DNA of 64,000 nucleotides from NCBI RefSeq assembly GCF_005144585.1, contig NZ_SSMQ01000013.1:62001-126000 (forward strand), written 5' to 3'. A model generated the notes under the pieces. The model searched no databases. It saw only the letters and a program-made list of their open reading frames with translations, and was not told the DNA's origin. The translations under genes were made by a program, and so were the position numbers. The stretch is from Polyangium fumosum. Its GTDB lineage: Bacteria > Myxococcota_A > Polyangia > Polyangiales > Polyangiaceae. The number at the start of each line of letters is the position of its first letter. Within the stretch, counting starts at the first letter, position 1. Shown piece by piece: positions 10,150 to 54,921 of the stretch.

Positions 10150-10702
10150 ACGGGCAAGGGAAGGTCGCGGCGCGCGGCGATCCATGTGTTGGCGGACAGG
10201 TGCGCTCAGGCGTTGACGGTGTTTGTTCGGCCGCGCGACAGGTGTCGCCGGTAGGCGATTGCGGGGGGGCGCGGCCTGTCCCTCTGACGTTGGCTTCGGC
10301 GCTGGCTTGTGGTCCTCCGCGACAAGGTCCGTGGCCAGCCGACAGCGCGTGTTCGGCTGCTCGACAAGGATTGTCGGCCGCCTGCGCACCTCGTCGTCGG
10401 CTGCGACCTTCCCCCGGGAACACGCGTCGCCACATGTTCGGCGGCGAGACACTTGCCCGCCTGCGCCGACGAGCCTTGTCCGGCTTCGTGACCGATGCCC
10501 TGTGGTGGAGCTGTGGCTTGTCGTGGCGCAGAACAGACGAGGACGACGATCGATGTCGTCTGTCGACATGCCCAACAACAACGGCTCGGTGGGGCGCCGA
10601 TCGAGGACGAGCGCGTCGCTCCCCTCGTCGCCCCCCCCCCGAACCTCGTCCGCGCCGCGGCCTTGGCTGGCAGACCCGTCCCCCGCCTTGTCCACGCCCG
10701 CT

Positions 10703-19305: not shown

Positions 19306-20376
19306 CTAGAAGCTGCCCTTCAACGTGAAGCCCGTCGGCGAAACGCCGACGTCCATGCTCTTGATCAGCCCCGTCTTGGGCTGCTCCTTCGCAGGCCCGG
19401 GATCACGGACCGTGAAGTAGAGCGTCACAGCGCCCGCCACGACCGCGGCGCCCGTGAAGATGTCGCTGACGAGCGCGAGGGTCGCGGTGGAGCTCGAAGC
19501 GTCGTCGAGCTGCGTTTTCGTCGCGCCCGAGTCGGGCTTGCGCAGATCCGCGAGCTCGCCGCTCTTCGAGAGCGCGAGCGCGCCCGTGGCGATCGCGCCG
19601 ACCGCGAGCGCACCCGTCACGCCCCATCCGGCCCACGGGATCGACTTCGGGGGCGGGGGAGGCGGGGTCACGGGCGCGGTGCTCGTCGTCGTCGCCGTCG
19701 CCGTGGGCGCCGTCGGTAGCGTCGTGGGCACGGTCCCCGTCTCGAGCGGCTTCGGCGCGAGCTCGGGCAGATCGAGCGTCACCTTCTCCGAGTCGAAGCT
19801 CGCCACCTCGATGGTCTTCGAGGCGCTCGTGCGACCTTCTTTCGTCGCCACGATGCGATGGCGGCCCGGGTTCACGAGCAGCGGCTTCGTGAAGGGCGAC
19901 TTGCCGACGAGCACGTCGTCGATCGTCACGTCCGCGTCCGGGACGCTCGTCACGATCTCCACGCGCGCGACGCGGGTGCGCAGCTTCTCGATGTCTTTTT
20001 CCACGTCGGCGCGGCGCTTCGGGTCGATCGTGGCGCCGCCCTCGGCCAGGTACTTCTCGAACGAGACGAGCGCGTTCGCGTAGTCCTGGAGCTGGAAGTA
20101 GACGTTCCCGATGTTGTAGAGGACGTTGTAATTCGGAGCGAGCTCGTACGCGCGCCGGAACTCGATGAGCGCGGCGCGGTAGTCGCCTTCGCCGAAGAGC
20201 TCGATGCCACGCTTGAAGCGCCGCGACGCTTCTTCCTTGGCTTCTTTCGTGGGTTCGGCTTGCGGTGTGGGGGCGGCGGCCGGGGCCCCGCCCGCGGGCT
20301 GCTGGGCCGAGACGGCGAGGGGGACGACGGGGAGCGAGAGGGCGACCGCGAGGGCGATACGTCGGGATGTCTTCAT
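19306..20376 (-). CDS. exported TPR and PEGA-domain protein
   Basis: A 356-residue protein with a Sec signal peptide (cleavage near AVSAQ). TPR-like repeats follow at about 40-110 (ASRRFKRGIELFGEGDYRAA, YNIGNVYFQLQDYANALVSF). A PEGA domain lies at about 140-205 (SVPDADVTIDDVLVGKSPFT, LLVNPGRHRIVATKEG). A Pro/Thr linker and two C-terminal hydrophobic segments (about 247-268 and 305-325) complete it. The start codon overlaps the stop of the upstream kinase gene (ATGA), so the two are translationally coupled. PEGA domains are surface-type beta domains found in bacterial envelope proteins and kinases. It probably acts in the envelope with the kinase's own PEGA domain. Confidence 0.85.
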   Translation of the reverse strand: MKTSRRIALAVALSLPVVPLAVSAQQPAGGAPAAAPTPQAEPTKEAKEEASRRFKRGIELFGEGDYRAALIEFRRAYELAPNYNVLYNIGNVYFQLQDYANALVSFEKYLAEGGATIDPKRRADVEKDIEKLRTRVARVEIVTSVPDADVTIDDVLVGKSPFTKPLLVNPGRHRIVATKEGRTSASKTIEVASFDSEKVTLDLPELAPKPLETGTVPTTLPTAPTATATTTSTAPVTPPPPPPKSIPWAGWGVTGALAVGAIATGALALSKSGELADLRKPDSGATKTQLDDASSSTATLALVSDIFTGAAVVAGAVTLYFTVRDPGPAKEQPKTGLIKSMDVGVSPTGFTLKGSF

Positions 20377-22100
20377 CACTGATACGGGTTGTTCGGGTCG
20401 ACGGTGCGGTTCGTCTTCTTGGTGCCGCCGGTCTTCATCGGATCCTCGGCGGTCGTGGTCGGCTGCGGGACGAAGATGACCTTGGTCTTTTCCTTCGAGG
20501 TGTCCGTGGGCGGCGGCGTGGCCAAGGGCGCCGCGGCCTGCTGCTCGAGGACCATCTCGATCGTGCGGTCCTTGTCGAAGGTCACGTCGCGGCTGCGCGT
20601 GGTGAAACCTGCGGCCTCCGCCTTGATGATATGCGTCTTGTCCTCGCGAGGGAACTTGCCGACGTAGGGGTTCGTCGCGAGCTCCTTGCCGTCGAGGAAG
20701 ATCTTCGCGTTCGGCGGCGTGACCGTGATCGTCACCTCGATGTCGCCCACGACGGGCGTGGCCGTCGCTGGCGACGGCGGCGCGGGCGGCGGCTGGCGCG
20801 TCATGACGAAGACGCCCACGCCGGCCGCGGCGATCGCGATGAGCGCGACGGCGCCGAGCAGGCCCCCACGCTTCGGCCCCGCGGCGGCCTGCGAGCCCGT
20901 GCTCGTCGCAGCGGCGGCAGAGGCCGTGAGCGACGTCGGCGACGAGACGCCGTTCGTGCGGCGCGTGCCGGGCGACGAGAGATCCTGGCTCGACATCGCC
21001 TCGCGCGCGCCCGTCCGATCGACGGACATCGGGCCCGACGCCGACGTGCCGTCGAGGTGCGGCAGGCCGATCGACTGGAACTCCGTCGTCGCCATCGACT
21101 TCGCGGCCTTGAGCTGCGTCTCGACGATCTGCTTGATCTTCGAGCGGTTCTCTTCGAAGTGCTTCGCGACGAGCTTGCCGACCTCGCGCAGCGAGGACTT
21201 GTCGCCCATCTGATCCAGGAGCTCTTCGAGCGCGGTCGCGAGGTCCGTCGAGGTCGCATACCGATCCTCGCGGCGCAGCGCGAGCGCCTTCATGACGATC
21301 TTCTCGAGGCCCTCGGGGACGTCGGGATCCACCGAGCGAGGCGAGGGGATGTCGCCGTTGATGAGGCGGTGCAGGACCGTCAGATCCGGGATGCCCTTCC
21401 AGAGGCGCCGGCCCGTCGCGGCCTCCCACAACATCACGCCCGCGGAGAAGATGTCCGCGCGCCGGTCGACGCGCTCACCGCGCGCTTGCTCGGGCGCCAT
21501 GTACGCGACTTTGCCCTTCACCACGCCGAGGCGCGTCTCGGCCGACGAGTTCATCGCCTTCGCGATGCCGAAGTCGACGACCTTCACCTGGCCGTCGTAC
21601 GTGACGAACACGTTGTGCGGCGTGACGTCGCGATGCACGACGTTGAGCGGCGTGCCGTCGAAATCCGTGAGCTCGTGCGCGTGGTGCAGGCCCGAGAGCA
21701 TGTCGACGATGATGCGCAGGTGCATCGGGAGCGTGAGCCCGCCGTCGCGGCCGATCCGGTGCAGGATGCGGTTCAGCGGCTGCCCTTCGAGGTACTCCAT
21801 CGCGATGAAGTACCGCTCGCCCTCCTGACCGACCTCGTTCGTCTGCACGACGTTCGGGTGCGAGAGGCGCGCCGCGAGCCGGGCCTCGTCGAGGAACATG
21901 CCGAGGAACTCGGGATCCGTCGCGAGCTGCGGGCGGATCTGCTTGATCACGCAGAGCTTGTTGAACCCTGCAGGTCCCTGCACGACGGCCAGATAGACCT
22001 CGGCCATGCCGCCATGACCGAGCTCGGCGATGAGCCTGTATTTGCCGAGGGTATTGGCCTCGGGCCCCTTCGTGACGCTGGACCCCTCCATGGTCGACAT
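20376..22100 (-). CDS. transmembrane Ser/Thr protein kinase with extracytoplasmic PEGA domain
   Basis: A 574-residue protein. The Hanks-type kinase domain spans about 20-285: glycine loop ELGHGGMAEVYLA, catalytic VHRDVTPHN (about 150), DFG (about 173) and MAPEQ (about 201). A linker holds TEFQSIGLPHLDG, then one membrane helix (about 411-433), then a PEGA domain (about 449-515: TPPNAKIFLDGKELATNPYV). The tail ends DPNNPYQ. All catalytic residues are present, so the kinase should be active. It is coupled by ATGA to the TPR-PEGA gene. The second kinase of this window (40750-42528) ends in a similar N-D-P-Y tail. Confidence 0.92.
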   Translation of the reverse strand: MSTMEGSSVTKGPEANTLGKYRLIAELGHGGMAEVYLAVVQGPAGFNKLCVIKQIRPQLATDPEFLGMFLDEARLAARLSHPNVVQTNEVGQEGERYFIAMEYLEGQPLNRILHRIGRDGGLTLPMHLRIIVDMLSGLHHAHELTDFDGTPLNVVHRDVTPHNVFVTYDGQVKVVDFGIAKAMNSSAETRLGVVKGKVAYMAPEQARGERVDRRADIFSAGVMLWEAATGRRLWKGIPDLTVLHRLINGDIPSPRSVDPDVPEGLEKIVMKALALRREDRYATSTDLATALEELLDQMGDKSSLREVGKLVAKHFEENRSKIKQIVETQLKAAKSMATTEFQSIGLPHLDGTSASGPMSVDRTGAREAMSSQDLSSPGTRRTNGVSSPTSLTASAAAATSTGSQAAAGPKRGGLLGAVALIAIAAAGVGVFVMTRQPPPAPPSPATATPVVGDIEVTITVTPPNAKIFLDGKELATNPYVGKFPREDKTHIIKAEAAGFTTRSRDVTFDKDRTIEMVLEQQAAAPLATPPPTDTSKEKTKVIFVPQPTTTAEDPMKTGGTKKTNRTVDPNNPYQ

Positions 22101-22427
22101 TCACCTCGCTGGAGAGCCGGATCGGATCTGTGGTGCGCGTGCTCCAGTACGCGCCCCCACTGCAAAGCATGCTACCGAAGAGTGCCCCTGGATCGCAATC
22201 GATGCGAGTTTTTGGTGCGCAAAAAAAACGGGCGCACGGTTCGCACCGGAAGCGTGGATCCAGGCTCGCGCGAGAGCTGGTGTCGCAGGGTACATCGAGC
22301 CCCGCGAAGGACCGAAAGGGAGGTCCTCGCGCGGCGTGGCTCGCACGCCGCGGCTGTCCGGGGGGCGGTTGACGGAGGGGCCCGAGGTCGGGCACCGTGG
22401 CTCTCGTCGCATCGACGGGAGGCGCGC
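22101..22427. other. divergent intergenic region between the kinase and the FIST/Che operon
   Basis: This 327-bp stretch must hold both promoters. I see a small hairpin with GTGCGC and GCGCAC arms around an A8 run (22215-22237) and a TTGACG at about 22369 with no good -10 partner. No ORF or RNA gene was recognised. Confidence 0.5.
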
Positions 22428-23615
22428 ATGACGACAAGGGCCGGTGTCGGTTTCTCGAACGAATCGTCCTCGACCGACGCGGGGACGGCGGCCGCGCAAG
22501 AGGCGCTGCGCACGCTCGGCGGCGGGGAAGCGGACATCGTCTTCGTCTTCGCGTCGACGAACCACGACTACGGCAAGCTCCTGCCCGCGATCCGCAAGAT
22601 CATCGGGCCCGTGCCCCTCGTCGGCTGCTCGACCGCGGGCGAGTTCACGCACGCCCACGTGGGACACGGATCGGTCGCCGTGATGGCGATCAAGAGCGAC
22701 GTGATCCGCTTCCGCGTGGGCTTCGGCCGCGGCCTCAAGGCCATGCGCCAGAGCGCGACGACCGAGGCGCTCAAATCGTTCGCCGCCGAGCACCGCGCCG
22801 CGCGCACGGCGGGCTTCGGGCACGCGACGTGTATCGTGCTGAGCGACGGGCTCGCCGGGCAGGGCGAGGACATCGTGGAGTCGGTGCACGCGAGCGCAAG
22901 CATGCTCGCGCAGGTCGTCGGCGGCGCCGCGGCGGACGACGCGAAGTTCGCGCGGACCGACGTCTTCCTCGACGATCGGCACTACACGGACGCGATCGTC
23001 GTGGTGTCCGCGTTCTCGAAGACGCCGATCGGCATCGGCGTGCGGCACGGCCTCTCGTCCGCGTGTCCGAGCATGATCGTGACGCGCGCCGCGGGCAACG
23101 TGATTCACGAGATCGACGGCCGCCCGGCGCTCGACGCGTACGAGCGGTTCGCGGCGGGGATCGGCGAGCCGCTCACGGAGGCGAACCGCGACGCGTTCAT
23201 GATCACGCACGAGCTCGGCATGCTGACGTCGAGCGGGGAGTACAAGATCCGGGCGCCGCTCAAGGCGACCGACGAGCGCGCGATCGTCATGGCCTCCGAG
23301 GTGCCCGTGGGCGCGAGCGTCGCCATCATGACGGGCACCGAGGAGAAGCTCGTGTCCGCGGCGGAGCACGCGGCGCGCAGCGCGCTCGTGAACCTCGCGG
23401 GGGGCCGGCCGGGCGCCGTCCTGGTGTTCGACTGCATTTGCCGCCGGATCTTCCTCGGCGAGCAATACAAGCGTCAGGTCGCCGCGTTCCGCTCGGTCGT
23501 GGGTCAGGACGTGCCGCTGATCGGCTGGGAGACGTACGGCGAGATCGCGCTCACGCCCGGACAGCAATCTGGCTGGCACAACTCGACCTCGGTCGTCGCG
23601 ATCCTGCCCGACTGA
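22428..23615 (+). CDS. FIST-domain sensor protein
   Basis: A 395-residue soluble protein consisting of FIST N-terminal (about 25-225: GEADIVFVFASTNHDYGKLL, LVGCSTAGEFTHAHVGHGSV, VVGGAAADDAKF) and FIST C-terminal (about 235-375: ALDAYERFAAGIGEPLTE, LVNLAGGRPGAVLVFDCICR, PLIGWETYGEIAL) domains. FIST proteins are cytoplasmic or membrane sensors, thought to bind small molecules such as amino acids, and often pair with chemotaxis or cyclic-di-GMP genes. Here it is the first gene of a chemosensory operon, 60 bp before an MCP that lacks a ligand domain. It is therefore the likely input. GGGAGG lies 6 nt before the ATG. The upstream open frame is a shadow of the kinase gene. Confidence 0.9.
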   Translation: MTTRAGVGFSNESSSTDAGTAAAQEALRTLGGGEADIVFVFASTNHDYGKLLPAIRKIIGPVPLVGCSTAGEFTHAHVGHGSVAVMAIKSDVIRFRVGFGRGLKAMRQSATTEALKSFAAEHRAARTAGFGHATCIVLSDGLAGQGEDIVESVHASASMLAQVVGGAAADDAKFARTDVFLDDRHYTDAIVVVSAFSKTPIGIGVRHGLSSACPSMIVTRAAGNVIHEIDGRPALDAYERFAAGIGEPLTEANRDAFMITHELGMLTSSGEYKIRAPLKATDERAIVMASEVPVGASVAIMTGTEEKLVSAAEHAARSALVNLAGGRPGAVLVFDCICRRIFLGEQYKRQVAAFRSVVGQDVPLIGWETYGEIALTPGQQSGWHNSTSVVAILPD

Positions 23616-23675
23616 AGCAGACGATCCGGGTTGAAAAACGGGGCGACCGAGCCGAAGCTGAGAAGCGGAGAGCAA

Positions 23676-24761
23676 GTGGCTGACAAGACGGATTCGAACG
23701 AGCAAAAAGAGCGCGATCCCGCGGCACGCCGCGCGGTCACGCGGCGCAAGATCGACGTCTACCTCGATCGCATCGTCACCGATGTCGAGGCGATCGCGCG
23801 CGGAGACGACGGGCGCGAGCTCTCGGCTCCGCCGGCGGACGAGCCGCGCGCGGCCCGCCTCCACGCGGCGCTCTCCACGCTCGTCGATTCGAACCGGAAG
23901 GCCGGCCGCGGGGTCGCCGCCGCGACGCGCATGCGCACGCTCGGCCAGCAGGTCGCGGGCACGCTCGCCGAGCTCCTCGCGAGCACGCGCCAGCAAGCCG
24001 CGAGCGGCAGCCAGCAAGCCGGGATGGTCAACGACATCACGACGACCATCGAGGAGCTCAACGAGGTCGGGATCCAGAACGTCGAGAAGGCCGAAGGGAT
24101 CATCCAGATCGCTGAGCAATCGGAGCAGATCTCGCAGGACGGCCAGCGCGACGTCGTCGCCGCGATCGAGGGCATCGACCGGCTGCGCCAGCAGGTCGAG
24201 CTGATCGCGGCCAAGATCCTCGATCTGACTGAGCGCACGCAGCAGATCGGCGAGATCATCAGCAGCGTCAACGAGATCGCCGAGCAGAGCAAGCTGCTCG
24301 CCCTGAACGCCTCGATCGAGGCGGCGAAGGCTGGCGAGCACGGGCGCGGCTTCGCCGTCGTCGCCCTCGAGATCCGCACGCTCGCCGAGCAGTCGAAACA
24401 AGCGACGCAGCAGGTGCGCTCGATCCTCGGCGAGATCCAGAAGGCGAGCCACAGCGCCGCGATGGTCACCGAGGAGGGCTCGAAGGCCGCGACCGAAGGC
24501 AGCTCCAAGGTGCGCCGCATCGGCGAGCGCCTCGGGCAGCTCGTCTACGTCATCAACCAGACGACGCGCGCGGCCCGGCAGATCACGGGCGCGATGCGGC
24601 AGCAGAGCCTCGGGCTCGAGCAGATCGCGCAAGGCATGAAGCAGATCAACATGGCCACGCAGGAGACGAAGATCAGCGTGGAGCAGGCCGAGCTCGCGCT
24701 CGATCGGCTGGCCCGATTGACGGAGCCGATCCGGGCCCACGACCACGGCACGGAGGCTTGA
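23676..24761 (+). CDS. soluble methyl-accepting chemotaxis protein without sensor domain or membrane helix
   Basis: A 361-residue protein. The N-terminal 70 residues are charged and have no recognisable ligand domain, HAMP or membrane segment. The rest is a long coiled coil with the conserved MCP hairpin tip, including [20 protein letters not shown] and [18 protein letters not shown], where CheA and CheW bind. The tip residues are close to consensus, so it should dock a CheA. I prefer GTG 23676 (GGAG 5 nt upstream) to TTG 23631. As it lacks a sensor, it presumably takes its signal from the neighbouring FIST protein. Its stop lies 3 nt before the start of the first cheW. Confidence 0.88.
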
Positions 24762-24763
24762 GC

Positions 24764-25186
24764 TTGGACGGCGGGGTGACGAACCTCGTCCTCACGCGGA
24801 TGGGCGGCCGCCCGTGCGCGATCCCGTGCGAGCACGTGGTCGAGATCATCCCGCGTGTGCAGCTCGATCACGTGCCCGACGCGCCCTCCGAGGTGCTCGG
24901 CGTGATCAACCTGCGTGGCCGTGTCGTGCCGGTGATCGACCTGCGGGGGCGGCTCTCGCAGACGAAGCCGCTGCCGTTCTACCAGCACCTCGTCATCGTC
25001 CGGGCCGCGAAAGGAAAGCTGCTCGGGCTCGCGGTCGACGAGGTCCGGGACGTGGTGACCGTGCAGGAGGACGCGATCGAAAAGCCGGGGGAGATCGCCG
25101 GCGTACGTTCGCCGGGTGTCGTGCGTATCGAGGACGACCTCGTGCTCGTGCTCGGTCCGGAGGACGCCTACCATGGCTCGAGCTGA
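24764..25186 (+). CDS. cheW: CheW-type adaptor, first copy
   Basis: A 140-residue CheW domain: RPCAIPCEHVVEIIPRV, SEVLGVINLRGRVVPVIDL and LLGLAVDEVRDVVTV are typical. CheW links MCP tips to CheA. TTG 24764 is preferred because GGAGG (24752-24756) lies 7 nt upstream; a TTG at 24758 overlaps the MCP stop. It overlaps the start of cheR by 14 bp. Confidence 0.88.
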   Translation: MDGGVTNLVLTRMGGRPCAIPCEHVVEIIPRVQLDHVPDAPSEVLGVINLRGRVVPVIDLRGRLSQTKPLPFYQHLVIVRAAKGKLLGLAVDEVRDVVTVQEDAIEKPGEIAGVRSPGVVRIEDDLVLVLGPEDAYHGSS

Positions 25187-26576
25187 GGACCGGCGCGCCC
25201 CGGATCCGGGTGTCGTGCGGCGCCTCGGCGATCTGGTCCGCGCCCGGACGCGGCTGCAGATGCGCCCCCGCAACCTGGAGATCATCGAGCGCGTGGCCGA
25301 GCGTCGCGCCGCCGAGCGTGGCGCGTCTGCGGACGCCTACCTCGAGCACGTGATCCTCTCGCACGACATGGCCGAGCTCGAGCCGTTCATCGCGGAGCTC
25401 ACGGTCGGCGAGACCCACTTCTTTCGTGGGCCTCCGCAGTTCGAGGCGCTGCGCAGCGAGATCGTCCCTTCGCTCGTGCACAAGCGGCGCAAGGAGCGCG
25501 TGATCACGGCGCTCTCCGCCGGCTGCTCCACCGGCGAAGAGGCCTACTCGCTCGCGATCGTGCTCCGCGAGGCCGCCATGAACGAGGGGATGCGCGTCGA
25601 GGTCACGGGCATCGACCTGAACCCGCGCTCCTTGCAGAAGGCCGAATCGGCGCGGTACTCGGCGTGGTCGCTGCGCGACATGCCCGAGGTCGTGCGCCGC
25701 CAGTATTTCCGCACCGAGGGCGACTTCTGGCACCTCTCCGAGGACGTGCGTCGCCTCGTGCGGTTCCGTCGCTTCGGGCTCACGGAAGGCCCGCTCGTGA
25801 GCGTGTTTCCGAGGGGCTTTGATCTGATCCTCTGCCAGAACGTCCTTTATTACCTGGAGCCGGACGCGCGGCCCGAGGTGATCGCCTCGCTCGCGGCCGC
25901 GCTCGCGCCGGGCGGCGTGTTGATGTTCGGCCCCGTGGACCACGCCGGGGACGTGCCCGGGTGCCGAGCGGTGCACGTCGGCGAGGTCGTGGTGCACGAG
26001 CGTTTCGGGCCCGTGAGCGTGCCGCCCTCGTCGCCGCGCGGCCGCCGGTATGCGCTTCTCTCGATCCCCCCCGCGCCTTTGCCGGCGCTGCGTATGGAGG
26101 GCGTGCCCGCGTTACCGGTCGCCGCCGCGACGCTTCCACCCGTGGTGCCCGAGCCTGCGTCGGCGCCTTTGACTTCGAGCGCACCGCCTTCGCTCGCGAG
26201 CGCCTTCGCCCACGCCGATGCGGGGAACCTCGAAGCCGCCCTCGCGGAGCTCGAAGCGCTGCTCGAAGAGGAGCCCGAGGAGCCGCGGGCGCACCTGCTC
26301 GAGGGGCTTCTCCTGGTCGAGCTCGGCGGCTTCGAAGCAGCGCTCGACGCCTTCCGCCGCTGCGTGTACCTCGATCCCTCGATGATGCTCGCGCACGCGG
26401 GCGCGGCCGTGGCGGGCCTCCGCCTCGGCCGCCCCGATCTCGTCGAACGCCACGCCGCACGCCTGCGCGCCCTCACGGTCGCGCGAGGCAAGGGCGTCGA
26501 CGCGCCGATCGAGGGATGGGACGGCATGACCGTGGGCCGGCTGCTCCGGCTGTTTCGAGACACCGAGATCCAATGA
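25173..26576 (+). CDS. cheR: CheR-type methyltransferase with C-terminal TPR
   Basis: A 467-residue protein. The CheR N-terminal helical domain is followed by the SAM-dependent methyltransferase (TVGETHFFRGPPQFEALR, SAGCSTGEEAYSLAI, FDLILCQNVLYYLEP). A Pro-rich linker leads to TPR-like repeats at about 345-430 (AHADAGNLEAALAELEALLE, GGFEAALDAFRRCVYLD). It should methylate glutamates of the operon's MCP. CheR-TPR fusions are common in alternative chemosensory systems, where the TPR controls interactions. GGAGG lies 9 nt before ATG 25173. The stop overlaps the next start as ATGA. Confidence 0.92.
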   Translation: MARAEDRRAPDPGVVRRLGDLVRARTRLQMRPRNLEIIERVAERRAAERGASADAYLEHVILSHDMAELEPFIAELTVGETHFFRGPPQFEALRSEIVPSLVHKRRKERVITALSAGCSTGEEAYSLAIVLREAAMNEGMRVEVTGIDLNPRSLQKAESARYSAWSLRDMPEVVRRQYFRTEGDFWHLSEDVRRLVRFRRFGLTEGPLVSVFPRGFDLILCQNVLYYLEPDARPEVIASLAAALAPGGVLMFGPVDHAGDVPGCRAVHVGEVVVHERFGPVSVPPSSPRGRRYALLSIPPAPLPALRMEGVPALPVAAATLPPVVPEPASAPLTSSAPPSLASAFAHADAGNLEAALAELEALLEEEPEEPRAHLLEGLLLVELGGFEAALDAFRRCVYLDPSMMLAHAGAAVAGLRLGRPDLVERHAARLRALTVARGKGVDAPIEGWDGMTVGRLLRLFRDTEIQ

Positions 26577-27178
26577 GCGCCCGGGAAGAGAGCGTCTACG
26601 AGAAGCTGCGCACCTCGCTCGCCGAGCTCGAGGAGAAGCTGCGCGAGGGCAAGACCGGCGAGCGGGAGGTCCACCCGCGCATCCTCGCCGAGCGGACACG
26701 CCGCATCGCGCGCGAACCGACGCGCCTCGATCGCGCGCCCGACTCGATCAGTTGCATCGTCTTCGAGCGAAGCGGGCGGCGCTACGCCGTGCAGCTCGAG
26801 TCCGTCGACGAGGTCGGCCCGATGAGCCGGATCACGCGTGTCCCCGGCGTGCCCGAGTATTTCCTCGGCGTCGCGGCGCGCCGCGGCCGGATCGTCGCCG
26901 TCGTCGATCTGCCGCTGCTCTTCACGCCCGACGCGCGCTCCGAATCGTCTGCCGAGCACCTCGTCATGGCGTCGAACGCGGAGGTCGTCTGCGCGGTGGC
27001 GGCGGACGCGCTCCACAATATCATCGAGGTCAACCGCCGCACGATCGCCAAGGCCATGCCCACGTTTCCCCCGCTGGTCCAGCGTCACACGCTGGGCGTG
27101 CTCGAGGACCGCACCGTCGTCCTCGATCTCGGATCGCTGCTGTCCGACCGCTCCTTGCGCGTCGAGGAGCGCGGCTGA
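26573..27178 (+). CDS. cheW: CheW-type adaptor, second copy with N-terminal extension
   Basis: A 201-residue protein. A charged helical N-terminus (about 1-55: LAELEEKLREGKTG) precedes a CheW domain (ISCIVFERSGRRYAVQLESV, EYFLGVAARRGRIVAVVDL, HTLGVLEDRTVVLDLGSLL). A second CheW with an extra helix may join a different array contact or bind another receptor. It is coupled at both ends: ATGA with cheR and TGATG with cheA. Confidence 0.88.
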   Translation: MSAREESVYEKLRTSLAELEEKLREGKTGEREVHPRILAERTRRIAREPTRLDRAPDSISCIVFERSGRRYAVQLESVDEVGPMSRITRVPGVPEYFLGVAARRGRIVAVVDLPLLFTPDARSESSAEHLVMASNAEVVCAVAADALHNIIEVNRRTIAKAMPTFPPLVQRHTLGVLEDRTVVLDLGSLLSDRSLRVEERG

Positions 27179-29901
27179 TGGCCCTCGACGACGCGGCGTT
27201 CGAGGCCCTCTGCGAGACCCTTCGCAACGAGGCCGTCGAGCAGGTCGAGCGCATCGGCACGGCGCTCCTCCTCGTCGAGCGCGGCGCCGAGGGCAGCGCG
27301 CGCGAGCAGCTCATCGACGAGGCGTTCCGGCAGGCGCACAACATGAAAGGCGCCGCGAGCTCGCTCGGGTTCGCGCACACGGCGCGCCTCGCGCACGCGA
27401 TCGAGTCGGTCCTCGCCTCGCTCCGCGCGATGGACTACGAGCGCGCGCCCGAGGTCTTCGACACGCTGAACGCGGGCCTCTCGACCGTGCACCACGCGCT
27501 GCGCGTGGATCCGAACCCCGAGCCGGATCTCGTCATCCTGGAGGCGATCGAGGGCCTCGAAGCCGTGCTCCTGGCCTCGAAACCCTCACATGCCCTGCCG
27601 CTGCCGGCCCCGCCGCCGCCGCCCGTCGTGCGGCCGGCCGACGGCATCACGGTCGCGACGCGATCGCGCAGCCCCCAGTCGATCTTGCGGCAGCACCGGA
27701 TGGCCGCCGAGGCCGCGGCGCCGCCGCCCAACGTGAACGCGGGCTACGCCGAGCCGAAGACGAAGCACAGCGAGCCGCCGCCGCACCCGCACGCGAGCGT
27801 GCCCCTCGTGTCGTCGCATTACGACGGCGCGCCGATCCCCGCGGGCTTTGGTCCGCCTCCGCCGGTCGGGTTCAGCTCGCCCGCGATCGGCCCGTACGGA
27901 CCCTCGACGGGGTACGTCGCGCGCGCGGACCTCGCGATCCCGGGTGGCATCACGCCGCCGCCTGCGCCTGTCGTCACGCCTGGCACCTCGAGCGGCAACG
28001 CGCCCGGCACGTCCGCGGGCTCGCCCGGTACCTCGGCCGGCGCTGCGGTGGCCGCGGCCCGCTCGATGGCCCAAGGCAGCGAGCGGGGGCCGAACGCGAC
28101 GGGGCAGCTCCCGAAGATCCCGAACGCGCCTGCGCCGCTTCGTTCGAGCACCGAAGAGACGCTTCGCGTCTCCATGAAAAAACTCTCGGCGCTCATGGCG
28201 CAGGTCGGCGAGCTGCTCGCCGCGCGCGTGCGCACCGATCAGCGCCTCGCCGAGCTACGCGCCGTCCTCGCCGCCGAGGAAGAGCGCCTCAAAGCACAGA
28301 CCTCGATCCGCGCGATGGTGCGCGACGAGGCGCCGGCGAAGCTCGAAGGCTGGTCCGAGCGGCTCGTCGAGGTCCAGAACGAGGACCTCGAACACGAGCG
28401 CCTCCTCGTGCGCAGGCTGCGCGAGATCGTGCGCGCGTTCGAGGCCGACGCGCTCCAGTCGACGATCCTCTCGGGCCAGCTCCAGGAGGACATCCGCCGC
28501 ATCCAGACCTTCCCGCTCGCGAGCGTGCTCGAGCCCTTGCCGCGGGCGGTCCGCAACATGGCGCGCGAGGCCGGCAAGATGGTCGACCTCGTCATCACGG
28601 GCGCCGAGCTCGAGCTCGACAAGAAGGTCCTCGAAGAGCTGCGTGATCCGCTCTACCACCTCCTTCGCAACGCGATCGATCACGGCTGCGAGCACCCGGG
28701 CCCCCGCACCGCCGCGGGCAAACCCTCGCGCGGCACGATCCGCATCCGCGCCGAGCATCGCGGCGACGTCGTCACGATCACGGTCAGCGACGACGGCCCC
28801 GGCGTCGACATCGCCGGCGTGCGCCGCGCGGCCATCGCGTCGGGTCTCGCGTCGGCGCTCGAAGCGGCGGAGATGCCCGAGCACCGCGTCCTCGAACTGC
28901 TCTTCGCGCCCGGCCTCACGACGCGCTCCGAGGTCGGCGAGCTCTCGGGCCGCGGCGTCGGGCTCGACGCGGTCCGCACCAACATCGAGCGGCTCCACGG
29001 CACGGTCACGGTCGAGTCGCGGCAGGGCGTGGGGACCTCCTTCGTCATCGTCCTGCCGCTCACGATCTACGTCGTCCACTCGCTGCTCCTGCGCGTCGGC
29101 GAGGAGCAGTTCGCGATGCCGATCTCCTCGATCCAGCGCATCTTGCGCATCAGCGCGACGGATGTGCTGGAGGTCGAGCGCACGCACGCGATCGTCGTCG
29201 ACGGCCGCCCGATCGCGCTCGTCCCGCTGGCCACGCTGCTCGGCCTTCCGGTCGAGCTTCCTCCGCCGCCCGAGCGCATCCCGGTCCTCGTCATCGGCAT
29301 CGGCGAGACCCGGTGCGCGCTCGCGGTCCGGGAGATCGTGAGTGATCAGACGGTCCTTGCGAAAAACCTCGAACCGCCGCTGGTTCGTGTACGGAACATC
29401 GCAGGTGCGACCATCCTTGGGGACGGCCGCGTCGTGTTGATGTTAAATCCCATCGATCTCCTCCGCTCGGCCTCCGGACGCGACGCCGACCGCTTCCGGG
29501 CGCTCCTGCCGAGGGTCGAAAACCGCCCCAAGCCGAGGCTCCTTTTGGTCGACGATTCATTCACCACCCGCGCGCTGGAGCGATCGGTGCTCGAGGTCGC
29601 CGGCTTCGACGTCGTCGCAGTCGCAGACGGCAACGAGGCGCTCTCGGCGCTCGAGCTCGAGACGTTCGACATCGTCGTGAGCGACGTCTCGATGCCCGAA
29701 ATGTCCGGCCTCGAGCTCTGCTCGAACATCCGACAAAATGAGCGGCTTCGGAGGCTTCCGGTCGTCCTGGTCACGTCGCTCGGATCCGACGATGATCGCC
29801 GGGCAGGCCTCGCCGTCGGCGCCGATGCCTACATCGTCAAGAGCGAGTTCGATCACGAGGTCTTCGTGAAGACCGTGAACGAGCTCGTAGGGAGGGCCTG
29901 A
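27178..29901 (+). CDS. cheA: hybrid CheA histidine kinase with C-terminal receiver
   Basis: A 907-residue protein. HPt domain with the phosphoryl His at about residue 54 (AHNMKGAASSLGF). Long Pro/Gly/Ser-rich linker, about 140-320. Dimerisation and ATPase domains with N box (HLLRNAIDHGCEHP), G1 (DDGPGVD) and G2 (GRGVGLDAV). CheW-like regulatory domain (QFAMPISSIQRILRI). Receiver domain with VDDSF, phospho-acceptor Asp at about 836 (VSDVSMPE) and Lys (YIVKSEF). All catalytic boxes are intact. A P2-like docking domain is not evident. CheA-REC hybrids occur in Frz-like systems (FrzE), where the attached receiver acts as phosphate sink or regulator. GAGGAG lies 8 nt upstream, and the start overlaps the cheW stop. 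Confidence 0.94.
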   Translation: MALDDAAFEALCETLRNEAVEQVERIGTALLLVERGAEGSAREQLIDEAFRQAHNMKGAASSLGFAHTARLAHAIESVLASLRAMDYERAPEVFDTLNAGLSTVHHALRVDPNPEPDLVILEAIEGLEAVLLASKPSHALPLPAPPPPPVVRPADGITVATRSRSPQSILRQHRMAAEAAAPPPNVNAGYAEPKTKHSEPPPHPHASVPLVSSHYDGAPIPAGFGPPPPVGFSSPAIGPYGPSTGYVARADLAIPGGITPPPAPVVTPGTSSGNAPGTSAGSPGTSAGAAVAAARSMAQGSERGPNATGQLPKIPNAPAPLRSSTEETLRVSMKKLSALMAQVGELLAARVRTDQRLAELRAVLAAEEERLKAQTSIRAMVRDEAPAKLEGWSERLVEVQNEDLEHERLLVRRLREIVRAFEADALQSTILSGQLQEDIRRIQTFPLASVLEPLPRAVRNMAREAGKMVDLVITGAELELDKKVLEELRDPLYHLLRNAIDHGCEHPGPRTAAGKPSRGTIRIRAEHRGDVVTITVSDDGPGVDIAGVRRAAIASGLASALEAAEMPEHRVLELLFAPGLTTRSEVGELSGRGVGLDAVRTNIERLHGTVTVESRQGVGTSFVIVLPLTIYVVHSLLLRVGEEQFAMPISSIQRILRISATDVLEVERTHAIVVDGRPIALVPLATLLGLPVELPPPPERIPVLVIGIGETRCALAVREIVSDQTVLAKNLEPPLVRVRNIAGATILGDGRVVLMLNPIDLLRSASGRDADRFRALLPRVENRPKPRLLLVDDSFTTRALERSVLEVAGFDVVAVADGNEALSALELETFDIVVSDVSMPEMSGLELCSNIRQNERLRRLPVVLVTSLGSDDDRRAGLAVGADAYIVKSEFDHEVFVKTVNELVGRA

Positions 29902-31367
29902 TGGCACGCGTTCTCATCGTCGACGACTCGGTCGTGATGCGCGACATCGTGCGCGCCCACCTCGCCGGACTCGCCCTCGATCTCGAGGTCGCGAGCAACG
30001 GAGAGGACGCGCTCACGCGCATGGCCACGTCGAGCCAGCCCTTCGATCTCGTCATCACCGACTACGCGATGCCCAACATGAACGGGCTCGAGCTCGCGCG
30101 TCGCGTGAAGGAGAAGGGAGGCACGCTCGCGCCGAAGGTCATCCTGATCAGCGCGAACAAGGAGCTCCGCGAGCGCGATCTTCTGGCCACCGGCTACATC
30201 GACGCCTTCTTCCCGAAGCCCGTCGACGGATCCCAGCTCTCCGCGCGTGTCTCCACGATCCTCTCGCTCACGATCCCGTCCGCGCCGGTCGTCCCTTCGA
30301 GCCGCAGGGTGCGCCCCGTGATCCGCGTCGTCATCGCCGACGACACCGAGGTCGGCCGCACGTTGCTCGCGCGTGTCCTCAAGGCCGATCCCGAGATCGA
30401 CGTCGTCGGCATGGCGCGCGACGGCCAGGGCGCCGTGGATCTCGCCGTGCGCGAGAACCCGCAGATCATCCTGCTCGACGCGATGATGCCCGGCCTCGAC
30501 GGCGTCGCCGCCACCCGACGCATCATGGCCCTCGCGCCGACCCGCGTCGTCATCGTCTCCGATCAACAGGGCAGCCGACCCGCCGCGCAGATCTTCGCCG
30601 CGACCGAGGCCGGCGCGCTCGACGTGATCGCGCGGCCAAGCTGGGGGGATCCGATGGGGCCGCAGGCCGTCGCCTTGCGCGACAAGATCAAGATGCTCGC
30701 CGAGATCCCCGTGGTGCGTCGCTGGGCCGACGGGCCGCGCTCGGTGCGATCACGTCGCGGTGGTAGCCTCCGCGCGCAGAACCGCGCGACGGTCGTCGGC
30801 ATCTGCGCTTCCACGGGCGGACCCGCAGCCATCGCCGCGATGTTGCCGGGCCTCGCGGCCGCTTCCTCGTTGATCCCGATCCTCATCGTGCAGCACGTGC
30901 TCGCGGGCTTCGACGAGGCGCTCGCCGAGTGGCTCGCCGAGGTCACGCAGCTCCCCGTTCGCCTCGCCACGCACGGCATGCCCTTGCGCGCCGGCGTCAT
31001 CGCGCTCGCGCCCGAAGGCAAGCACCTCGTCGCGCAATCGCCGCTCACGATCGGCGTGATCGAGGGCCCGCCCGTCGGCAACCATCGCCCCTCGGGCACG
31101 CCGCTCTTCGAATCTCTCGCGCGGCATTTCGGCGACGGCGCGCTCGGCGTGATGCTCACGGGCATGGGCAACGATGGGGTCGAGGGCCTGCGCGCAATCA
31201 AAGCGGCCGGCGGAAGTGTGCTCGTCCAGTCGCCGGATTCCTGCGTGGTAAGCGGTATGCCAGGTGCCGCGATTTCGCGCGGATACGCAGATGCCGTTTT
31301 GTCCCTCGACGAACTCGGCCCCGAAATCGTCGAGCGCGTCCGTGCCCCGGCGCGCTCGCGCCATTGA
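29901..31367 (+). CDS. cheB: REC-REC-CheB methylesterase
   Basis: A 488-residue protein with two tandem receiver domains followed by a CheB esterase. REC1 (about 1-125) has LIVDDS, the acceptor in VITDYAMPNM and a Lys in FFPKPVDG. REC2 (about 145-265) has the acceptor in LLDAMMPGLDG, while the usual Lys site reads IARPS. The esterase has Ser (GICASTGG, about 302), His (QHV, about 331) and Asp (MGNDG, about 423), all intact. Classical CheB has one receiver; the extra N-terminal CheY-like domain may replace the free CheY that this operon lacks. Its ATG overlaps the cheA stop. Confidence 0.92.
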   Translation: MARVLIVDDSVVMRDIVRAHLAGLALDLEVASNGEDALTRMATSSQPFDLVITDYAMPNMNGLELARRVKEKGGTLAPKVILISANKELRERDLLATGYIDAFFPKPVDGSQLSARVSTILSLTIPSAPVVPSSRRVRPVIRVVIADDTEVGRTLLARVLKADPEIDVVGMARDGQGAVDLAVRENPQIILLDAMMPGLDGVAATRRIMALAPTRVVIVSDQQGSRPAAQIFAATEAGALDVIARPSWGDPMGPQAVALRDKIKMLAEIPVVRRWADGPRSVRSRRGGSLRAQNRATVVGICASTGGPAAIAAMLPGLAAASSLIPILIVQHVLAGFDEALAEWLAEVTQLPVRLATHGMPLRAGVIALAPEGKHLVAQSPLTIGVIEGPPVGNHRPSGTPLFESLARHFGDGALGVMLTGMGNDGVEGLRAIKAAGGSVLVQSPDSCVVSGMPGAAISRGYADAVLSLDELGPEIVERVRAPARSRH

Positions 31368-31385
31368 AGGAGCAAAGGAGCTGAT

Positions 31386-32735
31386 ATGGTTCCTCCGATG
31401 CAGGAGCCGGAGCTCCCGGAGCGGCTGGGGAAGTATCAGATCATCCGCAGGCTCGCCTATGGCGGCATGGCCGAGGTACTCCTCGGCCGCCTCACGGGGA
31501 CCGACGGCTTCATGAAAGAGGTCGTCGTCAAGCGGGTGCTCCCGCAGTACGCGTCGAACAACGAGTTCATCGCGATGTTCCGCGACGAGGCGCGCATCAC
31601 GTCGCGCCTTCATCACGGCAACATCGTGCAGGTCGTCGAGTTCGCGGAGGAGGGCGGCCAGTACTACCTCGTCCTCGAGTACGTCGACGGCCCGAGTCTC
31701 GGCGCCACGCTTTACGAGCTCCGCAAGCGCGGCGAGCGCCTCAGCATCCCCGAGGTCGCGCACATCGCGGTCGAGACCGCGCGCGGCCTCGACTACGCGC
31801 ATCACAAGCTCGGCGAGGATGGCCGTCCCTTGCTCATCGTCCATCGCGACGTGAGCCCGTCGAACATCCTCCTCTCGCGTGAGGGCGTCGTGAAGCTCGC
31901 CGACTTCGGCATCGCGCGCGCCCGCGAACGGCTCTCGCCCACGCAAGGCGGCGCAGGCACGCTCAAGGGCAAATTCGCCTACATGGCGCCCGAGACCATC
32001 CTGCGCGGCCGCCTCGACGCGCGCTCGGATCTCTTCTCGTTCGGCGTCGTCCTCTTCGAGATGCTCACGGGCAGGAGCGCGTTCACCGGCGAGACCGAGG
32101 CGCACACCATCCAGCGCGTCACGACCGAGGACCTGCCCCCCGCGTCGAGCCAGAACCGCGCCGTCCCGCCCGAGTTCGACGAGATCGTTCACCGGCTGCT
32201 CGATCGCGACCCCGACAACCGCCCCTCGCGTGGCCTCGAGATCGTCGACGCGATCGGCAAGCTCCGCCTGCACACCTCGCCGCCGCCGAGCGAGCTGCTC
32301 ATGGAGACGCTCACGCGCCTCTTCCCGATCCACCGCCACGAGGCGCGGGATCGCGCTACGGTTCGTCCGGCGAAACCACGTGTCATCGTCGTCGACGAGT
32401 CGCGCACGCTGCGCGCGCTCGTCCGCGCGAGCCTCGGCCAGCGGTACACCGTCATCGAGGCTTCCACGGGCGACGAGGCGCGTGCCGCGATGCGCGGCGC
32501 CGTGCCGGATGCGATCGTCTGTCAGCGGACGCTCCAGGGCATGTCGGGGCTCGAGCTCTGCCATTCGATGCGCGAGAACCCCCGCCTCGCCGACGTCCCG
32601 TTCATCTTGCTCGCGGCCGACATCACGCCGGAGCTCGAAGCGGAGGCGCGCGTGATCGGCGTGCAAGCGGTCCTGCCGAAGCGCTTCGATCCACGCCAGC
32701 TCGAAGCTACGTTGCAGAAGATTCTCGAATCGTGA
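31386..32735 (+). CDS. Ser/Thr protein kinase fused to a degenerate receiver domain
   Basis: A 449-residue soluble protein. The kinase domain (about 16-290) has the glycine loop RLAYGGMAEVLLG, VHRDVSPSN (about 154), DFG (about 173) and MAPE (about 201). A receiver-like domain follows (about 335-449: RVIVVDESRTLRALVRASL, MSGLELCHSMRENPRLADVP). Where receivers carry the phospho-acceptor Asp, the sequence reads IVCQRTLQGM, with Gln at about 380. The MP of the acceptor loop is also lost. This should be a pseudo-receiver that cannot be phosphorylated conventionally. AAAGGAG lies 6 nt before the ATG and the gene starts 18 bp after cheB. It is probably the operon's output or a regulator of it. Confidence 0.9.
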   Translation: MVPPMQEPELPERLGKYQIIRRLAYGGMAEVLLGRLTGTDGFMKEVVVKRVLPQYASNNEFIAMFRDEARITSRLHHGNIVQVVEFAEEGGQYYLVLEYVDGPSLGATLYELRKRGERLSIPEVAHIAVETARGLDYAHHKLGEDGRPLLIVHRDVSPSNILLSREGVVKLADFGIARARERLSPTQGGAGTLKGKFAYMAPETILRGRLDARSDLFSFGVVLFEMLTGRSAFTGETEAHTIQRVTTEDLPPASSQNRAVPPEFDEIVHRLLDRDPDNRPSRGLEIVDAIGKLRLHTSPPPSELLMETLTRLFPIHRHEARDRATVRPAKPRVIVVDESRTLRALVRASLGQRYTVIEASTGDEARAAMRGAVPDAIVCQRTLQGMSGLELCHSMRENPRLADVPFILLAADITPELEAEARVIGVQAVLPKRFDPRQLEATLQKILES

Positions 32736-32787
32736 CGCGGACCGATCGTTCGGCCGCTCGTCATTTCCTGGGGAAGGGGAGCGCGGC

Positions 32788-33825
32788 ATGAACGACACGG
32801 AGCACCTGTTTCGACAGCGACCTCGCTCCGACGAGGAGCTCTACGAGCGGCTCGCGGAGATCACGAAGGACGAGCTCCGCAGGGATCTCGTCGCGCGCCT
32901 CGCCGCGCACGGCGCGCTCCCGCGCGAGGTCCCGATCTACGTGCGCGCCTTCGCGTTCCTCGGCCTCACGACGTCGGATCTGCCCGCGCTCACCCGCGTG
33001 CTCCTCGACGCGCGGGCGCCGATCGAGGGGCGCGCCGTCGCGCTCGCGCTCGTACGCTCGGTCGATCCGACGCGCGCGCAGGAGCTCGCGCGGCAGGTCA
33101 CGCAGACCGAGCTCCTCGCCATGAACGACGCGCAGCTCCTCGTGGTGATCGCGGGCATCGCCACGGCGCCTGCGCGCCTGCCCGAGATCTCGGAGAAGGT
33201 CGCGCGCCAGCCGCTCGAATCCCGCCTCGCCCGCTTCGAGCAGATCGAGCGCCTGCGCAAGCGCGCGCGGGTCCCTGCGGCGTTCCTGTACGAAGACCTC
33301 GTTCGTCGTGACGACCTCGGCATCGGCGACGGTGCCGTGGATCGCATCGTCGAGGAGGGCGGCGCGGCGGCCGTGTGGCTGTGCGAGTCGCTCTGGCACG
33401 AGGCGTCGAGCAAGGCGTCACGCGCGCGCTGGGCCGACGTCCTCGCGCGTGTGTTTCGTTCATCGGGACGCGCGAGCGTGGAGGGGGGGCGCGCTCTCGT
33501 GTTCGCCTCGGAGCGGGGCGAGGACGGCGCGCGCACGGCCGTGCTCTCCGTGGAGAGCCCGCTCGATGGATCGCTCACGCTCGCGCGCGTGCACGTGGAC
33601 GCGAGCGGTGCCCTCGCGGATGGCGCGCTCACGACGCTCGCGGACGAACGTGACCTCGAGGATTGGCTCTCCGCAGGTCCGGCGCTCCTGCCTCGTGTCC
33701 CGTCGCCGATGGCCTCGATCGCGCCCTGGGTCGAGGACGCCGCGCGCCGCACGAGCACGCCGCCGCGCGCGGCTCCGTATACCTTCGCGGCGGCGTGCTG
33801 GTTCTCGCTCGCCGCGCGCAGCTAG
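32788..33825 (+). CDS. conserved-looking hypothetical protein at the end of the chemosensory operon
   Basis: A 345-residue soluble, helical protein with no family I recognise. The first 200 residues look like a helical-repeat segment (PALTRVLLDARAPIEGRAVA, RLPEISEKVARQPLESRLAR), perhaps HEAT-like. The rest is mixed (TAVLSVESPLDGSLTLARVH). GGGAAGGGGAG precedes the ATG. It is 52 bp after the kinase-receiver gene, so co-transcription with the Che genes is plausible. Its stop is part of a CTAG shared with the convergent xthA stop. Confidence 0.7.
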   Translation: MNDTEHLFRQRPRSDEELYERLAEITKDELRRDLVARLAAHGALPREVPIYVRAFAFLGLTTSDLPALTRVLLDARAPIEGRAVALALVRSVDPTRAQELARQVTQTELLAMNDAQLLVVIAGIATAPARLPEISEKVARQPLESRLARFEQIERLRKRARVPAAFLYEDLVRRDDLGIGDGAVDRIVEEGGAAAVWLCESLWHEASSKASRARWADVLARVFRSSGRASVEGGRALVFASERGEDGARTAVLSVESPLDGSLTLARVHVDASGALADGALTTLADERDLEDWLSAGPALLPRVPSPMASIAPWVEDAARRTSTPPRAAPYTFAAACWFSLAARS

Positions 33826-34610
33826 CCCACGATCGCGTCCTCCACCTCGACACCCACGGGGCAGTGATCACTGCCCGTCACGTGAGGCGAGAGGAACGCG
33901 CGCTTGAGGTGCTTCGCCGCGCCCTCCGACGCGAGCACGTAATCGATGCGCCACCCGACGTTTTTCGCGCGCACGCCGAACCGCTGGCTCCACCACGAGT
34001 AGTGCCCGGGCCCCGACTCGAAGGCGCGGAACGTATCCACGTAGCCGGCGCGGATCCATCGATCGAGCTCCTCGCGCTCCTCGGAGGTAAACCCGCTCGT
34101 CTTCACGTTTTCCTTCGGCCGCGCGAGGTCGATCTCCCGGTGGGCCGTGTTGAAATCACCCATCACGAGGATCGGATCGCCGCGGCGCTTCCTCGGCTCG
34201 AGCACGTCGAAGAGGCGTCGGTAGAACGCGAGCTTGAACGGGATGCGGCTGTTGTCCCGGTTCTGCCCGCTGCCGTTCGGGAAGTACACGTTCGCCAGCG
34301 TGAGCCGACCAAAGCGTGCGATCTGCACGCGCCCCTCGGCGTCGAACGCCGCGTCCTTCATCGACGTCGTGACCCGATCGGCGGGCAGCCGCGAGAGCAG
34401 CCCCACGCCGCTGTACCCCGGTCGTTCGGCCGACGAGAACGCGCGCAGCCACGCGCCGCCGATCGACTCCAGGCACGGCCCGAGCTGCGCCTCCTGCGCG
34501 CGCACCTCCTGGATGCCCACGATGTCGGCCCGCTCCTCCGCGAGCCACGTGCAGAACCCTTTTCCGAGGACCGAGCGCAGCCCATTCACGTTCCAGCTCA
34601 CGATCTTCAT
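33822..34610 (-). CDS. xthA: exodeoxyribonuclease III
   Basis: A 262-residue AP endonuclease/exonuclease III of usual length. Active-site segments present: SWNVNGLRS, GIQEVRAQ (metal-binding Glu), GDFNTAHREIDLA, WRIDYVLAS and GSDHCPVGVEV (catalytic Asp-His). It repairs abasic sites and has 3'-5' exonuclease activity. The gene is convergent with 32788-33825, with the stops overlapping in a CTAG. Confidence 0.95.
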   Translation of the reverse strand: MKIVSWNVNGLRSVLGKGFCTWLAEERADIVGIQEVRAQEAQLGPCLESIGGAWLRAFSSAERPGYSGVGLLSRLPADRVTTSMKDAAFDAEGRVQIARFGRLTLANVYFPNGSGQNRDNSRIPFKLAFYRRLFDVLEPRKRRGDPILVMGDFNTAHREIDLARPKENVKTSGFTSEEREELDRWIRAGYVDTFRAFESGPGHYSWWSQRFGVRAKNVGWRIDYVLASEGAAKHLKRAFLSPHVTGSDHCPVGVEVEDAIVG

Positions 34611-34757
34611 GCGTCGAAGACAGCTCTAGGGTTTGGCCGGGCCATGTCAAGGAAAACCAGTCCTCGGCCGGGAGATGTCGAGCAAGCGCTCGGTTTTTAC
34701 CCGCGCGGGGGCTCCCGTGTCCGAAGCTCCCGGACATCCCATCGAGGAGGGACTCGC

Positions 34758-53333: not shown

Positions 53334-53397
53334 CCCGCGCTCCGTAGCCCTTCCTCGGCCGGCGCGCCAGTGCTTCCTGCCCCGCCGGGAGGCAGGT

Positions 53398-54917
<1,520 letters not shown>

Positions 54918-54921
<4 letters not shown>

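Follow-up and report, generated by a model that had tools for sequence, protein, structure and literature searches.

A conserved Polyangium operon with a FIST protein and a Ser/Thr kinase at the two ends of a chemosensory gene set

As a rule, chemosensory arrays take their input from membrane receptors, and their outputs are CheY-like or work through cyclic di-GMP. The gene set described here comes from the soil myxobacterium Polyangium fumosum, where it lies in a stretch of 64,000 nucleotides (hereafter the window: contig NZ_SSMQ01000013.1, positions 62,001 to 126,000) belonging to an assembly of 13 Mb. Eight consecutive genes of the same strand, at 22428-32735 of the window, encode a FIST protein, a soluble methyl-accepting chemotaxis protein (MCP), a first CheW, a CheR with tetratricopeptide repeats (TPR), a second CheW, a CheA fused to a receiver (REC) domain, a CheB preceded by two receivers (REC1 and REC2) and a Ser/Thr kinase that ends in a degenerate receiver, or pseudo-receiver. 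The chemosensory core, MCP, CheW, CheA, CheR and CheB, is thus encoded in one place, each member scoring above its Pfam cut-off. A first-pass annotation of the sequence had listed these genes and domains and called the genes mostly overlapping. Its coordinates agree with ours, Pfam confirms the domains, and the junctions are tight: four overlaps of 1 to 14 bp (CheW1/CheR 14 bp, CheR/CheW2 4 bp, CheW2/CheA 1 bp, CheA/CheB 1 bp) and gaps of 2 bp (MCP/CheW1), 18 bp (CheB/kinase) and 60 bp (FIST/MCP). With the alternative TTG starts of Table 1, the 2 bp gap would become an overlap of 4 bp and the 60 bp spacing would shrink to 15 bp.

The gene order was sought across 183 genomes of the order Polyangiales, the best 9-10 candidates per genome being scored. 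The whole eight-gene order recurs in seven of them: all six Polyangium genomes (the window included) and one genome of another genus, G084. It is the same in the window and in loci L035-L040. A FIST of the operon type occurs in these seven genomes out of 183, with 91-100% identity within the genus and 61% in G084, the next best match reaching at most 42%; a search of the phylum (377 genomes) gave no additional one among the 17 genomes matching at E 1e-60. The full-length kinase-receiver orthologue is found in the same seven genomes (97-100% in the genus, 57% in G084). The other kinase matches listed stay at or below 50% and cover mainly the kinase domain, one extending to residue 415 at 37%. 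CheA follows suit: its orthologue (query residues 323-907, at least 62% identity) is present in the same seven among 108 genomes of the family, and the search score falls from 751 to 358 bits after them.

In G084 the eight proteins have diverged considerably: identity to the window is 61% for FIST, 72% for the MCP (70% over the full alignment), 61% for CheW1, 41% for CheR, 57% for CheW2, 49% and 62% for two segments of CheA, 48% for CheB and 57% for the kinase. The junctions are tighter still, with a 3 bp gap followed by overlaps of 4, 14, 4, 4, 4 and 4 bp (the CheA start being placed at 10570 from the orthologue alignment), the last of these joining the kinase gene to cheB. The first-pass annotation had reasoned that the linkage would be coincidental if related operons lacked the FIST or the kinase gene at random; the same seven of the 183 genomes carry both. 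Chance adjacency is ruled out by the order in seven genomes, by the co-occurrence of FIST and kinase in seven of 183 and by the overlaps in G084. The linkage of FIST and kinase is conserved as a unit. Its distribution is patchy, since an operon-type FIST was not found in G085 and G086, which belong to the genus of G084, and either loss or transfer would account for this.

Table 1. Features of the operon, of its surroundings in the window and of a comparable locus in another genus.
Feature	Position	Strand	Remarks
FIST/FIST_C protein, soluble, proposed ligand sensor	22428-23615	+	395 aa; Pfam FIST E 3.2e-42, FIST_C 2.5e-29
Soluble MCP	23676-24761 (GTG; alternative TTG start 23631)	+	361 aa; Pfam MCPsignal only
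CheW1	24764-25186 (alternative TTG 24758)	+	140 aa; Pfam CheW E 6.7e-28
CheR with C-terminal TPR	25173-26576	+	467 aa; Pfam CheR E 8.6e-43, TPR_16
CheW2, ~60-residue N-terminal extension	26573-27178	+	201 aa; Pfam CheW residues 61-192, E 5.9e-20
CheA-REC hybrid	27178-29901	+	907 aa; Pfam Hpt, HATPase, CheW, REC
REC-REC-CheB	29901-31367	+	488 aa; Pfam two REC and CheB methylesterase
Ser/Thr kinase with C-terminal pseudo-receiver	31386-32735	+	449 aa; Pfam Pkinase E 6.6e-43, REC 8.3e-15
Ninth co-directional gene, membership uncertain	32788-33825	+	345 aa; Pfam: no match
Divergent Ser/Thr kinase with PEGA domain, outside operon	20376-22100	-	Pfam; genus-conserved neighbour
Intergenic region between divergent kinase and FIST, probable operon promoter region	22101-22427	.	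327 bp, largely conserved in six genus genomes (alignment)
Receiver-kinase protein with N-terminal region, ending a che operon of genus g15	L106:5934-7754, L199:6473-8290	-	12 bp after cheB

The MCP sits at the centre of the proposed array. The signalling hairpin, MCPsignal, is its sole Pfam family over the cut-off, and its maximal hydropathy over 19 residues is 0.64, so that it has no membrane-type segment by our threshold of 1.6 (a crude one: the CheA, CheB and CheR of the window also exceed it somewhere). The window and G084 proteins are 93% identical at the hairpin tip, and a single strict methylation-site motif, according to what we take to be the consensus, is present in both. The two N-terminal pieces match no Pfam family even at E 10; a HAMP-like stretch was seen by eye in the N-terminus and is left open. 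The first 30 residues contain 8 Lys/Arg against 6 Asp/Glu, which is too weak an excess for us to claim a DNA-binding tail of the Frz kind. Sixteen MCPs of other che loci of the Polyangiaceae provide a comparison: eleven have two hydrophobic segments, and five have none, namely L097, L098, L099, L106 and L096 (the last a frame of 303 residues close to the end of its contig), so that a soluble MCP is not unique to this operon. The six closest relatives (L095, L100, L104, L107, L110 and L113; 46-53% identity) carry two hydrophobic segments each, whereas the operon MCP is soluble, in line with the membrane-free array that had been proposed at the outset. This suggests that in the present lineage a soluble FIST may have taken over from a membrane sensor, working in trans in the way NosP acts on histidine kinases.

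That FIST protein scores 145 and 102.5 bits against Pfam, both FIST and FIST_C being over the cut-off, and with a maximal hydropathy of 1.51 it also lacks a membrane-type segment. Filing it as a NosP is ruled out: it matches the NosP model NF041558 over nearly its full length, at 129 bits for a cut-off of 450. Its AlphaFold2 model is of good quality (mean predicted local distance difference test, pLDDT, 93.6), and the best fold match in the PDB is FBXO22 (E 1.3e-9, template modelling (TM) score 0.49), followed by weaker matches to cyclic amide hydrolases and chorismatase (E 2.6e-6 and 4.0e-6; TM 0.33 and 0.40). A sequence search against the PDB gave no match, and a profile search retrieved FBXO22 only, at E 0.33-0.34. 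His384 is the sole invariant histidine across 13 aligned FIST proteins and is a mere candidate for heme binding. Fusions of FIST to MCPs were reportedly noted by Borziak and Zhulin in 2007. FIST proteins are reported to bind heme or nitric oxide (NO) (PMC12570481, PMC8846402). NosP acts in trans: it binds NosK, a kinase in which no sensor domain is recognised, and inhibits it (PMC12570481). The suggestion that the FIST of the operon senses a cytoplasmic small molecule is consistent with its family and, weakly, with its fold; we consider the protein a likely internal small-molecule sensor.

At the other end of the operon, the kinase keeps its catalytic residues. K49, D155 and D173, presumably the catalytic Lys, HRD Asp and DFG Asp, are invariant in all seven copies. 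Its C-terminal receiver, by contrast, has Q380 at the position which we take, by eye and from the usual receiver motif, to be that of the phospho-Asp, and A410 at that of the Thr/Ser, again in all seven. The window and G084 proteins share 51% identity over the pseudo-receiver, compared with 64% over the kinase domain and 26% over the linker, which indicates that the pseudo-receiver is retained and not decaying. In none of the seven copies, then, is the kinase a response regulator with a phosphorylatable receiver; this domain should not accept a phosphoryl group from CheA, which makes docking or allostery a better reading than a plain His-Asp relay. The first-pass annotation had His-Asp signalling meet Ser/Thr phosphorylation at the output: in the sense of phosphotransfer to the kinase this is not supported, and any coupling would have to proceed through docking or allostery, or by way of the CheA and CheB receivers. 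It could just as well be the kinase that adjusts the array. The window holds two more Ser/Thr kinase genes, one divergent from the FIST gene (Table 1), the other at 40750-42528.

Among the His-Asp components, CheA and CheB keep their catalytic residues, judging from four aligned orthologues and from motif positions as we assume them to be. In CheA, His54 of the Hpt domain and the ATP-site and receiver residues are invariant, the receiver being canonical; in the CheB protein, Ser304, His332 and Asp425 are invariant and REC1 is canonical. REC2 has kept its Asp, but its conserved Lys is Arg in the window and Pro in G084. That Lys is present in 25 of 29 motif rows from other che loci of the Polyangiaceae; two of the remaining four have a Lys one place earlier, and two match a C-terminal motif outside the receiver.

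How ordinary is the rest of the operon in its family? We compared 60 other CheA loci of the Polyangiaceae (20 and 40, several of them cut by contig ends, and Polyangium paralogues included). A core recurs around CheA, made of CheW, CheR, CheW, MCP, CheA-REC, CheB and single receivers, close to the che6 order of Myxococcus xanthus (PMC3945109). A kinase follows CheB directly in two of the 60 loci, from genomes G082 and G083 of one genus (g15). There, the che operon ends in a protein of 605-606 residues (Table 1) with a canonical receiver before the Ser/Thr kinase, found in only two of the 183 genomes at E 1e-80. Its kinase is 33-34% identical to that of our operon, with the domain order reversed. 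In a CheA tree of 63 rows (L109, whose match is too short, being left out), the g15 CheA proteins form a fully supported pair of their own, outside the fully supported clade of the window and G084, some forks between the two being weak. Reversed domain order, low kinase identity and separate CheA clades suggest that the two kinds of operon gained their kinases independently. REC2, the receiver belonging to CheB itself, is without the conserved Lys in the window and in G084 alike; by eye, the CheB receiver of g15 is degenerate too. Several arrangements stand apart from the count of two in 60: in L222 and L224 a kinase comes after cheB with a protease-like gene between, and at other CheA loci kinase matches lie farther away or on the opposite strand. 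In two genomes of genus g41 (L102:15954-19161, L103:11627-14889), a REC-GGDEF gene and then a Ser/Thr kinase gene are divergent from the che operon.

FIST genes are found in many other contexts. Among 60 FIST loci from the order, 6 come with the operon and 54 without. In a scan of named genomes, 80 loci were kept of at least 140 confirmed FIST relatives; two of the 80, both from Polyangium, have a che cluster, and 25 of the other 78 have matches to receivers or to histidine-kinase ATPases. In L118, L122 and L130, FIST adjoins a histidine kinase without hydrophobic stretch, with receivers behind (by eye, and by Pfam in L118 and L130), while in L127 the kinase near FIST begins, by eye, with a hydrophobic stretch. 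L189, one of the 25, shows an MCP match on the opposite strand near FIST. In L175:9971-13970, from a metagenome-assembled genome of the Myxococcota, FIST lies near a CheY-like gene and a CheA-like kinase of Hpt-HATPase make-up that is devoid of a CheW domain; a domain search of that locus turned up no MCP. In L047:4842-13587 (G140), one of the 54 order loci without the operon, FIST adjoins a stand-alone CheB, a receiver protein and a 1447-residue protein with CheB, CheR and REC matches. Finally, four loci of the Polyangiaceae with no che genes (L062, L063, L064 and L067) have a Ser/Thr kinase upstream of FIST on the same strand, in a cluster which also holds a small protein; one small gene separates kinase and FIST in L062, L063 and L067, and was not seen in L064. 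They form a second FIST-kinase linkage.

Several known systems resemble parts of the operon. The Frz system of M. xanthus likewise has a cytoplasmic MCP lacking any transmembrane or periplasmic portion, a pair of CheW proteins, a CheA-REC hybrid in which the receiver probably serves as a sink, a CheR with TPR and a CheB; by contrast, no FIST or Ser/Thr kinase is among the Frz proteins named in the excerpts (PMC5716589, PMC4546325, PMC3945109). Frz also has a separate REC-REC protein, FrzZ, while the two receivers of the operon are fused to CheB; in a search confined to the window, no separate dual receiver of the FrzZ type was found. A further difference may lie in FrzCD, which binds DNA through a basic tail and contains two HAMP domains (PMC5716589, PMC12077210). 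The Che6-type cluster of M. xanthus, with its consecutive locus tags MXAN_6947-6952, comprises CheW, CheR-TPR, a CheW of about 200 residues whose CheW domain begins near residue 60, as in CheW2, and then MCP, CheA-REC and CheB (PMC3945109). The Che6-like relatives of the operon (L095, L100, L104, L110 and L113) differ in that their MCP, with its two hydrophobic segments, is encoded directly before CheA, and they have no FIST or adjoining kinase match.

On the input side, the NosP-NosK/NahK systems also use a FIST/FIST_C protein as a separate sensor, partnered with a histidine kinase in which no sensor domain is recognised (PMC12570481, PMC8846402); here, unlike in NosP systems, the proposed partner is a CheA array, and the FIST falls below the NosP cut-off. 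On the output side, CheR-TPR combined with multidomain receiver proteins recalls the alternative-function clusters such as Wsp (PMC3447774). By the criterion used in that survey, the CheR-TPR, REC-REC-CheB, CheA-REC and kinase-REC proteins identified by Pfam would place the operon in this class; the excerpts of the survey note many receiver-fused outputs and no Ser/Thr kinase (PMC3447774). The combination of FIST, che array and Ser/Thr kinase was not found described in the open-access literature, subscription papers not being covered, and among the open-access titles and abstract beginnings listed we found no che operon with a Ser/Thr kinase. The modules, then, are individually known, and their combination differs from the Frz, Che6-type and NosP systems. 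We regard the operon as a probable alternative-function chemosensory system whose parts for input and output are unusual.

A few words are needed on the surroundings. The divergent PEGA kinase adjoins the operon in all six genomes of the genus and not in G084. A ninth co-directional gene, absent from the first-pass annotation, starts 52 bp 3' of the kinase gene; it is present in all six genomes of the genus, does not adjoin the G084 operon, has weak matches (24-28%) in two of 177 other genomes of the order and gives a poor AlphaFold2 model (pLDDT 60). This genus-specific gene may share the operon transcript. A terminator scan returned 10 sites, where shuffled sequence would yield 3.4; neither the CheB-kinase gap nor the gap between kinase and ninth gene contains one. 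No sigma-70-like promoter was matched in 21900-34700, a result that is weakly informative for Polyangium and does not exclude a promoter. When the domains of the operon itself served as tblastn queries, the window outside 20300-34000 gave no match to MCP, CheW, CheR, CheA or CheB, and a single receiver match, at 53482-53817, within the frame 53194-54921. The earlier remark that CheC, CheD, CheZ and motor genes are missing holds for the ten proteins scanned with Pfam, other genes being unscanned and no query having been aimed at these families.

Gene content and order, co-occurrence, the soluble MCP, the catalytic residues and the lost phospho-site are the observations from which we would build a mechanism. 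We propose, tentatively and giving it slightly less than an even chance, a FIST-driven cytoplasmic array that has the kinase docked via its pseudo-receiver as effector. FIST, in the place of a membrane sensor module, would bind an intracellular ligand (heme- or NO-like, or a metabolite) and alter the soluble MCP-CheW-CheA complex by direct contact. CheA would then phosphorylate its own receiver, as a sink, and REC1 of the CheB protein, while CheR-TPR and CheB would adjust the MCP. The kinase would dock on the array complex through its C-terminal pseudo-receiver; the state of the array would set its activity or location without phosphotransfer, and it would signal on to its substrates. The input half draws on the logic of the FIST family, on the probable change from a membrane-type to a soluble MCP and on gene order; the output half draws on the conserved linkage and on the independent g15 case. 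That FIST and a kinase gene also lie close together at four other loci, which have no che genes, counts in favour of the whole. A further form of the idea, with an array that either floats in the cytoplasm or, like Frz, is attached to the nucleoid, a detachable FIST and a kinase controlled through its pseudo-receiver without phosphotransfer, strikes us as rather unlikely.

Several facts weigh against the docked-effector proposal. Five of the sixteen other MCPs also lack hydrophobic segments, some of them in cut frames. The score of FIST is far under the NosP cut-off, and its fold matches other than FBXO22 are weak (TM at most 0.40). Among the 78 other FIST loci kept (of at least 140 relatives), 53 have no receiver or kinase-ATPase match. 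The operon is carried by just two well-separated lineages, the two genus-mates of G084 being without it. Kinase genes are common, with three in the window, so that neighbourhood alone is a weak argument and the case rests on conservation.

Other explanations must therefore be weighed. FIST might act on CheA directly, in the manner of NosP, the MCP being merely a structural scaffold tuned by methylation. The inhibition of NosK by NosP (PMC12570481) is a precedent, and L175, with its Hpt-HATPase kinase and CheY-like gene and no MCP by domain search, is the sort of locus one would expect; but FIST adjoins the MCP gene in all seven operons, and CheA contains nothing beyond its standard Hpt, catalytic, CheW-like and REC domains, and we regard this explanation as unlikely. 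We are just as doubtful that the kinase is an input or feedback element which phosphorylates MCP, CheW, CheA or FIST and so sets the gain of the array, with the output leaving through REC1 or an orphan regulator. Its pseudo-receiver cannot serve as a normal output receiver, REC1 is the sole dedicated output regulator in the operon, and the Frz output RomR is a separate protein (PMC4546325), yet the g15 kinase at the same operon position has a canonical receiver and looks like an output. It is quite improbable that the kinase or FIST is a co-transcribed passenger without role in the pathway: kinase genes are frequent in the window and the operon is patchy in the family, but both positions are kept at 57-61% identity, the kinase gene overlaps cheB by 4 bp in G084, and in 183 genomes, with the best 9-10 candidates of each scored, a full-length kinase or a FIST of the operon type was never found without the operon. 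As for a straightforward relay, in which CheA would switch the kinase by phosphorylating its receiver, the fusion of a receiver to the kinase and the canonical g15 receiver suggest it, but Gln at the acceptor site and Ala for Thr/Ser in seven of seven copies make it very improbable.

The conserved gene order points to an operon that begins with an internal, detachable sensor and finishes with a Hanks-type kinase, and the pseudo-receiver of that kinase predicts a coupling without phosphotransfer. If the form of the idea with a detachable FIST and direct control of the kinase by the array were true, chemosensory signalling and Ser/Thr phosphorylation would be directly joined, two phosphorylation languages of bacteria meeting in one place. 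If the array does control the kinase, this small operon would make it testable how His-Asp signalling connects with the many Ser/Thr kinases that myxobacteria possess.

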